A DNA stretch of 64,000 bases from the NCBI RefSeq assembly GCF_004103695.1, contig NZ_CP035280.1, forward strand, positions 1,054,001 to 1,118,000, written 5' to 3'. The notes under the pieces are model-generated. The model searched no databases, had not been told where the DNA came from, and saw only the letters and a program-made list of their open reading frames with translations. Positions 4,491 to 39,476 of this stretch are shown one piece after another; the stretch's first letter is position 1; each line of letters starts with the position of its first letter. The position numbers and the translations under genes were made by a program. This DNA is from Clostridium sp. JN-9. GTDB taxonomy: Bacteria > Bacillota > Clostridia > Clostridiales > Clostridiaceae.

Positions 4491-4655
4491 AAAACTGTTA
4501 ATTAATTTTATAAAAAGTAATACATACCTTTATGATCATTTATTTTTTATACCAAATAAAAGATCTTATTTGTTTGCAATTTATTATATTGTACAAGCCC
4601 AAGAAGCATTATAAAATATCATTATTCAAAAATATGGAAGCTAATAGTTAAAAAT

Positions 4656-14116: not shown

Positions 14117-14281
14117 TAATATATAAAAACAGGCAATGTATGATGAATATTTGTTCTATATGTAACCTTTGTTACCCAGGAAATATATAAATGCTATGCA
14201 GTCATATGTGTTATAATATTGGTAAAGTATTGGATATTTCCATTAATAAATAAAATGGTAAACTTAATTTTGGAGGGAGCA

Positions 14282-14746
14282 ATGAACAATTATTTAACTG
14301 AAGAGGATTTAGCAAAGCTTAAACAGGAATTTGAATACAGGAGTACAACTTTAAAAGCTGAAATTGCTAAGGAAAAAATGATAGCTGCATCTTTTGGAGA
14401 TAGAAGTGAGAATGCAGAATATAAGTATGCTAAACAGCGTTATTATGAAAATAACAGAAGAATAGGATACTTAAGGAGAATGATTAATTCTGCAAAAATA
14501 ATAGAAAAGAGCAGTGACAAAGGTATTGTAGACATAGGAATGAAAATAAAAATAGGATTTATAGAAGATGATGAGAATGAGGAAGTACAGCTTGATACAA
14601 CTTTAAACACAGATCCTCTTAAAAATATGGTAAGTATAGAATCTCCTTTAGGTAAGGCAATTTATAAAAAAAGAGTTGGAGACAGGGTGCAGGTGGAATC
14701 CCCTAATGGCAGCTATACTGTACTTATAAAAAAGATAATAAGGTGA
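14282..14746 (+). CDS. GreA/GreB-family transcript cleavage factor
   Basis: About 154 residues. The N-terminal antiparallel coiled coil carries the tip motif FGDRSENAEYKYAKQR, whose Asp and Glu coordinate Mg2+ in the RNA polymerase secondary channel. The DRSENAEYxY form with the following RRIGYLRR is closer to GreB than GreA. The C-terminal FKBP-like domain ends in VESPNGSYTVLIKKI. The ATG chosen is preceded by GGAGGGAGCA; an ATG 21 codons upstream lacks a site. It lies just before the two-component genes in the same direction and may share their transcript. Confidence 0.88.
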   Translation: MNNYLTEEDLAKLKQEFEYRSTTLKAEIAKEKMIAASFGDRSENAEYKYAKQRYYENNRRIGYLRRMINSAKIIEKSSDKGIVDIGMKIKIGFIEDDENEEVQLDTTLNTDPLKNMVSIESPLGKAIYKKRVGDRVQVESPNGSYTVLIKKIIR

Positions 14747-32321: not shown

Positions 32322-32795
32322 TTGAGTAAGAACTATAAGCCTAAAGAATTTGCTGAATTATTAAATGTATCAGTTTTAACACTACAACGATGGGATAACG
32401 CAGGAAAATTAAAAGCATTTAGAACACCAACAAATAGGCGGTTTTATACTTATGAACAGTATAAAGAATTTATGGGTATAACATCTTCTGGAAAAAAAGT
32501 AGTTATATATACAAGAGTTTCAACTTCTAATCAGAAAGATGATTTAAAAAATCAAGTTATATTTCTTAAACAATATGCTAATGCAAAAGGAATTATTGTA
32601 GATGAAGTGATAGAAGATTATGGAAGTGGATTGGATTATAATCGTAAAAAATGGAATAAACTTATTGATGAGTGTATGACATCTGTAATCTCAATACTTC
32701 ATGTTTTTAGCTGTAGAATTTATGGTTTAAGAAAGTATAAAAAAGAGATAAAGGAAGATGAAGAAGTTGAAAAAAGCATACAAAACAGAGATTAA
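32322..32795 (+). pseudogene. tnpA: IS607 serine recombinase TnpA with internal deletion
   Basis: The N-terminal MerR-like helix-turn-helix (KPKEFAELLNVSVLTLQRW) and the catalytic Ser region (VVIYTRVSTSNQKDDLKNQ) are present. After KWNKLIDECM the sequence jumps to SVISILHVFSCRIYGLRKYK, the normal family end. About 60 residues of the resolvase domain that usually lie between are missing in frame. The product of 157 residues instead of about 210 is unlikely to recombine. Start is TTG after AAAGGAGTGAT. Confidence 0.8.
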
Positions 32796-33930
32796 ACCAA
32801 CCAAAGAACAGATAATAAAAATTCGTCGGACAATTGGTGTAAGCAGGTTCATATATAACTTCTATATCGCTCATAATAAAGAAGTTTATGAAAAAGAAAA
32901 GAAATTTGTAAGTGGCATGGATTTTTCAAGGTGGCTTAATAATGAGTATATACCTAATAATCAAGATAAAGTATGGATTAAAAAAGTATCTTCCAAAGCA
33001 GTTAAACAGGCCATTATGAATGGAGAAAAAGCTTTTAAGAAGTTCTTCAAAGGTGAAGCTGGCTTCCCAAAATTCAAGAAAAAGAAAAATCAAGATATTA
33101 AAGCCTACTTTCCTAAAAACAATGAAACAGACTGGACTATTGAAAGGCATAGAATTAAAATACCAACTTTAGGCTGGATTGGGCTCAAAGAATACAGCTA
33201 TATACCAGCTAATGGCAGAATAACAAGTGGAACAGTAAGTCAAAAAGCTGATAGATATTATGTCTCTGTATTAGTTGATGAAGATATAAAGATTAATAAT
33301 AAACGTTGTTCTGAAGGAATAGGGGTGGATTTGGGACTCAAAGATTTTGCAATTTGCAGTAATGGAATAACTAAGAAGAATATTAATAAAACTAAAACAG
33401 TTAAAAAAGCAGAAAAGAAACTAAAACGTGAGCAAAGAAAACTTTCAAGGAAATATGAAAGCTTGAAATTAAGAAATAAGAAAGAGAAAGGAGAAGCTAC
33501 TCGTCAGAATATCCAAAAACAAATAGTCAAGGTACAAAAACTTCATCAAAGACTTACAAATATTAGAACTGATTATATTAATAAAACAGTAAGTGAATTA
33601 ATAAAGCAAAAACCACGCTTTATTACCATAGAAGATTTAAATGTAAGAGGAATGATGAAGAATAGACATTTAGCAAAGGCAGTTGCACAGCAAAAGTTTT
33701 ATGAATTTAGAATTAAACTTATTTCAAAAGCAAAACAAAATAATATAGAAATAAGAATAGTTGATAGATTCTATCCAAGTAGTAAAACCTGCAGTTGCTG
33801 CGGAAAGATTAAGAAAGATTTAAAACTATCAGATAGGGTGTATAAATGTGATAATTGCAATACTTCTATTGATAGAGATTTAAATGCTTCAATCAATTTA
33901 GCTAATGCTAAAGAATATAAGATAGCTTAA
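32758..33930 (+). CDS. tnpB: TnpB RNA-guided nuclease of the IS607-type element
   Basis: A 390-residue protein with N-terminal KKAYKTEIKPTKEQ typical of TnpB. RuvC-I is GVDLGLKDFAICS (Asp), RuvC-II TIEDLNVRGMMKN (Glu) and RuvC-III SIDRDLNASINLA (Asp). A zinc finger CSCCG...CDNC sits between II and III. All catalytic residues are present. TnpB proteins are guided by an omega RNA from the element's right end and cut DNA lacking the element. It overlaps the end of tnpA. With the recombinase broken, it is an immobile guide nuclease or a relic. Confidence 0.93.
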   Translation: MKKLKKAYKTEIKPTKEQIIKIRRTIGVSRFIYNFYIAHNKEVYEKEKKFVSGMDFSRWLNNEYIPNNQDKVWIKKVSSKAVKQAIMNGEKAFKKFFKGEAGFPKFKKKKNQDIKAYFPKNNETDWTIERHRIKIPTLGWIGLKEYSYIPANGRITSGTVSQKADRYYVSVLVDEDIKINNKRCSEGIGVDLGLKDFAICSNGITKKNINKTKTVKKAEKKLKREQRKLSRKYESLKLRNKKEKGEATRQNIQKQIVKVQKLHQRLTNIRTDYINKTVSELIKQKPRFITIEDLNVRGMMKNRHLAKAVAQQKFYEFRIKLISKAKQNNIEIRIVDRFYPSSKTCSCCGKIKKDLKLSDRVYKCDNCNTSIDRDLNASINLANAKEYKIA

Positions 33931-34060
33931 TTAAACAAGCGCTTATATGTGTACCGAAGGCTATTTCGGGAATTTACGCCTGTGGAGTGCTATACAAACT
34001 GTAGTAGCTTAGGCAAGGCAGGGTACAATGAAACAGGAATTATCTCAGTATGGATACATT
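33850..34060 (+). ncRNA. Probable omega RNA (TnpB guide scaffold), extent approximate
   Basis: The stretch from the end of tnpB through the non-coding segment with TACGCCTGTGGAGTG and TAGCTTAGGCAAGGCAG has the position and GC-rich, structured look of TnpB guide scaffolds at IS605/IS607 right ends. The guide would be the sequence just past the element's right end. Position and family knowledge support it; the ends are inferred. Confidence 0.45.
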
Positions 34061-37470: not shown

Positions 37471-37562
37471 GCTATTACTTTGATTGCTGCAAAAGATTTA
37501 TGCATATATATCCTTCTGAAAGATAAACTAACATAGAGTTCATTTTACAGGAGGTAAATTCA

Positions 37563-39476
37563 ATGAGTGAAACTATATTAGAAAAAACAGAAGGCCGTGT
37601 AAGTTATCATGACTCTGTTGAAGAAATGCTTAAAAGAATAAGACAGGATGGAATGTCCAATGTTTTTGACAGATATGCATCTCAGGAAAAAATAAGATGT
37701 AAATTTTGTCTGGAGGGATTAAGCTGCCAGCTGTGTTCTCAGGGTCCCTGCAGAATTAATCTAAAGGGAGAGCAGCAAAAGGGAGTATGCGGTATAGGCC
37801 CAGATGGTATGGCAATGAGAAATATGCTGCTTAGAAATATTATGGGAGCAGGTACATACAGCCACCATGCCTATGAGGCTTTCAGAACATTAAGGTCAAC
37901 AGGGCAGGGAAAAAGTCCTTTTAAAATAAAGGATACTGAAAAACTAAAATGGATGTGCGGCAAAGTTGGTATTAACACAAATCAGGAAATAAATAAAATG
38001 GCTGTGGAGTTAGCTGATTTCTTAGAGGCAGAAATGGGAAAAGACGTGGATGAACCAAGTGTAATGGTAGATGTATTTGCTCCAAGAAAAAGAAAACAGG
38101 TGTGGAAGGACATTGGAATTTATCCCTCAGGAGTAGTTCATGAGGAGCAAAATGCAGTATCAAGCTGCTTAACCAATGTGGATGGAGATTATGTATCTCT
38201 TGCAAAGAAAGCCTTATCATTAGGATTAGCTACAATTTATACAGCTCAGATAGGACTGGAGATGACACAGGATATACTATTTGGAACTCCAGCTCCACAT
38301 GAGGTAAATGTGGATTTGGGAATAATGGACCCTGATTATATAAACATTGTATTTAACGGACATCAGCCATGGCCTGGAGTTGCTACTCTGCAAAAGGCAA
38401 AGGCACCTGAGGTACAGGAAAGAGCAAAGGCAGCAGGCGCAAAAGGACTCAGAATAGTTGGTTCCATTGAAACAGGTCAGGAGCTTCTGCAAAGATTTCC
38501 AATAGATAATGTATTTGTTGGACTTATGGGTAACTGGCTCACCATAGAACCTCTTTTAGCCACAGGAACAGTGGATGTTATGGCAATGGAAGAAAACTGT
38601 TCACCTCCTGATATAGATCAGTATGCTGAAAAGTATCAGGCAACACTAGTTGGAGTAAGCACAATAATAGGATTGCCGGGACTTAGTCATATGTTTCCCT
38701 ATGATCCTGCAAAGGTGAATGAAACTGCTGATAAGCTAATAGATTTAGCCATAGAAAATTTTAAAAAGAGAAAGGATAAGATTGTACCAAAGGTTCCAAA
38801 GATAACACAAAAGGCTATAGCTGGATTTTCTACGGAAGCTGTTTTAGGTGCCCTGGGTAATAAATTAGATCCATTAGTAGATGTAATGGCAGCAGGAAAA
38901 ATTAAAGGAATAGTGGCTCTTGCAAACTGTTCTACACTACGAAACGGGCCTCAGGACTGGAATACAGTAAACCTTGTAAAGCAATTAATTAAAAAGGATA
39001 TTTTAGTTGTGGCTGGAGGCTGCGGCAACCATGCACTGGAGGTTGCAGGGCTATGTAATTTAGATGCAGTAAATATAGCAGGTGCAGGGCTTAAACAGGT
39101 ATGTAATATGTTGAAAATTCCTCCTGTTTTAAGCTTTGGAACATGTACTGATACAGGAAGAATATCCATGCTTGTTACTGAACTTGCTAATCATCTTGAT
39201 GTGGATATTCCTGACCTTCCTATTGCAGTAACTGCACCTGAATGGATGGAGCAGAAAGCAACAATAGATGGCATGTTTGCTGTTGCTTATGGAGCTTATA
39301 CACATTTATCTCCAACTCCATTTATAACAGGTGCCAGCAAGCTTGTAAAACTCCTTACAGAGGATGTGGAAAAACTCACAGGCGGCAAGGTTGCCTTAGG
39401 AGATAACCCTATAGAAGTAGCCAACAACATTGAATCACATATATTGATTAAAAGAAAAGCAATGGGACTAAGCTAA
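37563..39476 (+). CDS. cooS: CO dehydrogenase-like protein (CooS family) with variant active-site cluster
   Basis: A 637-residue protein with the CODH scaffold. Surface clusters: Cys46 and Cys49 (CX2C, rather than the CX7C D-cluster motif), then Cys55, Cys58, Cys63 and Cys76 for the B-cluster. Active-site ligands by alignment from memory to C. hydrogenoformans CODH-II: His267, Cys346, Cys456, Cys487 and Cys528 are kept, but the position of Cys295 (GICCTGNE) reads GSIETGQE, so the ligand is Glu303. CooS-V of that organism also lacks a canonical Cys, holds an Fe-S-O hybrid cluster and does not oxidise CO. No cooC, cooF, acs or hydrogenase genes are adjacent. Start after GGAGGTAAATTCA. CooS family membership is near certain; CO activity is doubtful. 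Confidence 0.93.
   Translation: MSETILEKTEGRVSYHDSVEEMLKRIRQDGMSNVFDRYASQEKIRCKFCLEGLSCQLCSQGPCRINLKGEQQKGVCGIGPDGMAMRNMLLRNIMGAGTYSHHAYEAFRTLRSTGQGKSPFKIKDTEKLKWMCGKVGINTNQEINKMAVELADFLEAEMGKDVDEPSVMVDVFAPRKRKQVWKDIGIYPSGVVHEEQNAVSSCLTNVDGDYVSLAKKALSLGLATIYTAQIGLEMTQDILFGTPAPHEVNVDLGIMDPDYINIVFNGHQPWPGVATLQKAKAPEVQERAKAAGAKGLRIVGSIETGQELLQRFPIDNVFVGLMGNWLTIEPLLATGTVDVMAMEENCSPPDIDQYAEKYQATLVGVSTIIGLPGLSHMFPYDPAKVNETADKLIDLAIENFKKRKDKIVPKVPKITQKAIAGFSTEAVLGALGNKLDPLVDVMAAGKIKGIVALANCSTLRNGPQDWNTVNLVKQLIKKDILVVAGGCGNHALEVAGLCNLDAVNIAGAGLKQVCNMLKIPPVLSFGTCTDTGRISMLVTELANHLDVDIPDLPIAVTAPEWMEQKATIDGMFAVAYGAYTHLSPTPFITGASKLVKLLTEDVEKLTGGKVALGDNPIEVANNIESHILIKRKAMGLS

Follow-up and report, generated by a model that had tools for sequence, protein, structure and literature searches.

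The cooS-V gene and the cluster ligands of its product

The window, the 64,000-nt stretch of the Clostridium sp. JN-9 genome that was analysed, carries at 37563..39476 (+) a gene for a 637-aa protein. It was assigned as cooS-V (structural group D-1) from the open reading frame, TIGR01702, PF03063 and the solved homologue 7B7Q. The frame opens with an ATG behind a good ribosome-binding site (Shine-Dalgarno GGAGGT, 37550..37555, +). A nitroreductase-family gene lies upstream and a convergent FtsX-type ABC exporter pair with a TetR regulator downstream, and an Rfam search returned no element at cooS-V. Elsewhere in the window, a T-box leader (RF00230, 131.8 bits) was found at 1465-1677. An IS607-type pair and the RNA that follows it occupy 32322-34039, with the serine resolvase TnpA at 32322-32795 and TnpB at 32758-33930. 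Directly 3' of TnpB lies a RAGATH-18 RNA of Rfam (33979-34039, +, 62 bits), whose position suggests either a guide (omega) RNA for TnpB or the right end of the element.

In profile searches the protein matched TIGR01702 with 887 bits and PF03063 with 496 bits. The hydroxylamine reductase (Hcp) model TIGR01703 gave a partial match to the C-terminal third at 51.6 bits, below its curated cut-off of 360.8 bits. The best PDB match was CooS-V of C. hydrogenoformans (CooS-V_Ch, 7B7Q) with 867.5 bits, the next CO dehydrogenase (CODH) scoring 417.6 bits; aligned over 624 aa, the window protein and CooS-V_Ch are 60.4% identical.

The first-pass annotation had placed a Glu at the position of an active-site Cys, and the multiple CODH alignment puts it in exactly that column. 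Glu303 (codon 38469..38471, +; motif VGSIETGQE) aligns with the second Cys of the AcsA-type GMCCTGNE, that is, with the C-cluster ligand Cys295 of CODH-II, and with Glu295 of CooS-V_Ch. An alignment offering another Cys for this ligand position had been named as a possible objection; none was found in the CODH alignment. The Cys is kept in the other CODHs, namely the clade C-like (GCTCVGQDL), D-2-like (GHVCEGQQL), AcsA-type (GMCCTGNEV) and clade B-like (GICCSGLSA) proteins, which also deviate at the D-1-defining columns (the C-like, D-2-like and B-like labels were assigned by us from the motifs).

His267, Cys346, Cys456, Cys487 and Cys528, listed earlier as conserved, do correspond to the CooS-V ligands His259, Cys338, Cys449, Cys480 and Cys521, and were present in all 54 sequences compared. 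Two ligands had been overlooked. The first is Glu563 (codon 39249..39251, +), a second carboxylate ligand equivalent to CooS-V Glu556 and HCP Glu494 (ligand role from PMC9311411). The second is the extra D-cluster residue Cys49, the counterpart of CooS-V Cys41. Cys46 and Cys49 belong to a type III D-cluster (C-x2-C-x5-C, here C46-x2-C49-x5-C55) and Cys55, Cys58, Cys63 and Cys76 to the B-cluster, all encoded at 37698..37790 (+) and with cluster roles taken from PMC9311411 and PMC6344411. The D-, B- and hybrid-cluster ligands of CooS-V_Ch thus form a complete set in the window protein. The pattern is not due to chance, since all 15 checked columns are identical in 54 of the 54 Clostridiaceae sequences, the window's included. 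Glu563 by itself is not diagnostic of a hybrid cluster because the clade C-like and D-2-like proteins share it; the diagnostic change is that from Cys to Glu303.

Clade membership and predicted chemistry

Placing the protein in a CODH phylogeny had been proposed as a check, and in a 43-row tree it falls within the CooS-V_Ch (D-1) clade with an SH-aLRT of 100%. Structural group D-1 was defined by the features described above, and the identity of its active site with that of HCP was noted at the time (Inoue 2019, PMC6344411). The window protein shows every published feature of the group, including Tyr99, Glu563 and Lys565, and no difference from it was found. It is this D-1 subclade, not one Glu alone, that carries the CooS-V case. 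In the tree the window copy stands together with the copies of C. cibarium and a C. ragsdalei-type genome, apart from most Clostridiaceae, and the nearest neighbours of these three are Formimonas and a Desulfitobacteriaceae genome (SH-aLRT 92), a placement that suggests horizontal transfer. Among other family members, the cooS-V of genome G086 is broken into two overlapping frames by a frameshift or decay, and genome G032 has an additional, incomplete copy, about 350 residues long.

The structure of CooS-V_Ch (PDB 7B7Q/7B7T/7B95/7B97/7B9A; Jeoung 2022, PMC9311411) contains a redox-morphing [4Fe-3S-nO] cluster and no Ni, and the enzyme neither oxidises CO nor reduces CO2 (PMC9311411), as the first-pass annotation had stated. 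The window protein has the same residues at all of its D-, B- and hybrid-cluster ligand positions, at Asn345 and at both Glu ligands. A true Ni-CODH that tolerates a Glu ligand and retains CO/CO2 interconversion is therefore very improbable, since the homologue with identical ligands has neither Ni nor CO activity. Such an enzyme would agree with the CODH fold, with the TIGR01702 score and with the retained acid-base Lys565. Genetics in M. acetivorans, as cited in PMC6344411, also hint at the involvement of an archaeal D-1 protein in CO oxidation. Against it, the five Cys and one His that surround the C-cluster of a catalytic Ni,Fe-CODH are incomplete here, Glu303 standing for Cys295, and of the acid-base His and Lys pair only the Lys is present, Tyr99 replacing the His. 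The genomic neighbourhood, described below, also argues against it. A C295E variant of CODH-II, cited in PMC6344411 and PMC9311411, no longer contained Ni and showed some newly acquired NH2OH reductase activity.

The gene thus very probably encodes a CooS-V-type (D-1) homodimeric hybrid-cluster oxidoreductase that has lost CO/CO2 interconversion. Sequence, clade and solved homologue agree in supporting the earlier view of a CooS-V/hybrid-cluster-like protein distinct from the Ni-CODHs. That view was right but not new, as PMC6344411, PMC9311411 and PMC6006190 already say so; the last describes CA_C2498 of C. acetobutylicum, annotated as a CODH but missing one C-cluster Cys and probably a hybrid-cluster protein, which we liken to the present one by its description. 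What is said of the hybrid cluster, of missing CO turnover and of reductase chemistry is carried over from CooS-V_Ch. By this analogy, Glu303 together with His267, Cys346, Cys456, Cys487, Cys528 and Glu563 would assemble a redox-morphing [4Fe-3S-nO] cluster in place of the Ni,Fe C-cluster, and the D [2Fe-2S] and B [4Fe-4S] clusters would carry electrons to it. Once reduced, the hybrid cluster would open a channel, bind a small oxidised compound containing N or O and reduce it, CO/CO2 interconversion having been lost. We judge the most likely role to be stress-type detoxification or electron-sink reduction.

Genome context and comparison with Hcp

The window is part of a single 3.22-Mb contig of a 99.9% complete genome. 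As first annotated, cooC, cooF and acs are missing from the neighbourhood of cooS-V; a genome-wide profile search extended this to AcsB (PF03598), which gave no match at all. The genome search found no second CODH, the other PF03063-type match being an hcp only. C. hydrogenoformans, by comparison, has five cooS genes (PMC9311411). No operon partner is conserved, and since any given family of neighbouring genes is found beside it in at most 3 of the 17 genera, cooS-V is an orphan gene.

CooS-V is carried by 55 of the 188 Clostridiaceae genomes. An auxiliary role has been proposed for clade D (PMC13056359), and the protein might assist an active CODH as a sensor of CO or of the redox state. Other CODHs are indeed enriched among the carriers (31/55 against 38/133; Fisher p = 0.0005, uncorrected for kinship), in agreement with PMC13056359. 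The remaining 24 carriers, however, spread over 12 genera, have no other CODH above the TIGR01702 cut-off, and four of them are single-contig genomes (G000, the genome analysed here, G106, G108 and G132). AcsB was found in none of these 24, compared with 12 of all 55 carriers. The solitary carriers contradict the literature, according to which genes of this kind are always accompanied by another CODH, and we consider an accessory role unlikely.

A further reading makes CooS-V a second Hcp, an NO/hydroxylamine detoxifier in the HcpR nitrosative-stress regulon that is redundant with hcp. The active-site residues equal those of HCP (alignment; PMC6344411), and an hcp is present in the same genome. 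The columns of His267, Cys346, Cys456, Cys487, Cys528 and Glu563 are common to this Hcp and CooS-V, so that the two share largely the same ligand columns; the Glu303 loop is gapped in the same alignment, and the equivalence of this ligand with the HCP Glu was taken from PMC6344411 and PMC9311411. Otherwise the similarity of the two proteins is very remote (local identity of 30% at 23 bits; 537 against 637 aa).

Their upstream regions also differ. Upstream of hcp, 93 nt from the start codon, stands a perfect HcpR2 palindrome, GTAACGCTAGTTAC (positions 4522-4535 of locus L086), whereas no HcpR2 site (GTAACnnnnGTTAC) occurs within 2 mismatches in the gap upstream of the window cooS-V, and none in the 54 cooS-V upstreams of the family. 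Likewise, no HcpR2, FNR/HcpR1, CRP-like, NsrR, Rex, PerR, Fur or CooA operator is enriched upstream of cooS-V. In the window itself, a perfect HcpR2-type palindrome (GTAACCTTTGTTAC) lies at 14162-14175, just 5' of a greA-like gene at 14219-14746, a hint that the NO regulator may control this transcript-cleavage factor.

The biochemistry of the homologue argues in the same direction as the upstream regions. NO reduction by CooS-V_Ch was undetectable, NH2OH reduction was very slow (kcat 0.13 s-1, kcat/KM 20 M-1 s-1) and the potentials lie about 300 mV below those of E. coli HCP (PMC9311411). The NH2OH activity looks too low to be physiological, and we regard a second Hcp as doubtful. The first-pass annotation had proposed a redox or nitrogen-species enzyme; the nitrogen part is weaker than was implied, given the NO and NH2OH results and the lack of an HcpR site.

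An upstream element and the time of expression

In most Clostridiaceae, a de novo search recovered a two-box motif, ACATAaT-N13/14-GGAAAACTTA, about 40 nt before the cooS-V start, with a score of 780 compared with 454-463 in control sets. The window has a weak copy of this promoter-like element, TGCATA-N15-GATAAACTAA, at 37501..37531 (+). As in most relatives, its second box starts 41 nt before the start codon. Its leave-relatives-out score of 8.4 was reached by 7% of 219 control upstreams, by 1.8% at the same position and by 5% of shuffles. The transfer suggested above for the window copy and its two companions (L033 and L034) would fit the weak or different element of these three. No sigma-70 consensus promoter was found on the + strand of the cooS-V upstream gap. 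In four members of a C. beijerinckii-like group (L068, L069, L070 and L074), a hairpin-containing segment of about 60 bp (ATGAAAGAAAAT...ATTTTCTTTCAT) separates the element from the start codon, which places the element about 103 nt upstream. Similar boxes (TACATATTTA...GAGCAAACTTT) precede cooS-V in Desulfosporosinus and some other Clostridia, and in Desulfosporosinus the strict pattern occurs roughly once in each genome, at cooS-V. A two-box regulon was considered and rejected, as the strict patterns recur at cooS-V only and scattered others are about as frequent as in the reversed-pattern control.

A forespore promoter matrix, trained on the sequences upstream of gpr and spoIIR in 30 genomes, ranked the Clostridiaceae cooS-V upstreams above the 219 controls with an AUC of 0.84-0.85. 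None of 300 column-permuted matrices did as well (best 0.64), the cooS-V upstreams exceeded the control median in 17 of 17 genera, and in genomes outside the training set the AUC was 0.87. The genome analysed here encodes exactly two SigB/F/G proteins above the cut-off, consistent with their being sigma-F and sigma-G and with the lack of a sigma-B. These results are no more than suggestive of a forespore-type (sigma-F/sigma-G) promoter for cooS-V in most Clostridiaceae relatives. The protein would then be a forespore-specific redox protein that guards the spore against oxidants during development or germination, much as catalase, rubrerythrin and SodA are made under sigma-G in C. difficile (PMC3789822). 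This is a question of timing and is compatible with the hybrid-cluster oxidoreductase proposed above.

Several observations make us hold this possibility tentatively, as somewhat improbable. The commonest -35-like box starts with ACATA and not with G(T/A)ATA, the strict element stands almost only before cooS-V, unlike the regulon of a sigma factor, and by eye it does not resemble the Desulfosporosinus ssp promoters. The reverse test was weaker, the cooS-V motif giving AUCs of 0.71 on gpr and 0.60 on spoIIR, and the window's own copy is weak. In addition, the C. autoethanogenum orthologue, whose loss (cooS2) had little phenotype, was reported as expressed (PMC4895105). Proteomics of C. tyrobutyricum CTK_C21760 (PMC4916380) was dropped as evidence on timing, the clade of that protein not being established.

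The CODH annotation of 37563-39476 is wrong, and the gene belongs to the CooS-V look-alike family, of which it is an ordinary, well-conserved member; the family has already been described. What is added here to the known biology is the solitary genome context, the HcpR2 site that hcp has and cooS-V lacks, and the two-box element of cooS-V. Databases misname the protein as a CO dehydrogenase, TIGR01702 still listing it as an equivalog, so no CO oxidation should be assigned to it in metabolic models of the organism. In many Clostridia CooS-V is the sole CODH-family protein besides Hcp and acetyl-CoA synthase is absent, which weakens the view of a CODH accessory. The small effect of cooS2 loss implies a function that is not visible in ordinary growth. 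Possibly, though we would not favour it as things stand, the CooS-V proteins of Clostridia that form spores are hybrid-cluster reductases, expressed in the forespore and independent of CO metabolism, that serve in oxidant protection of the spore or as an electron sink. If true, this would explain the near-absent growth phenotype of the C. autoethanogenum deletion, and the conserved promoter element is a testable lead on when cooS-V is used.
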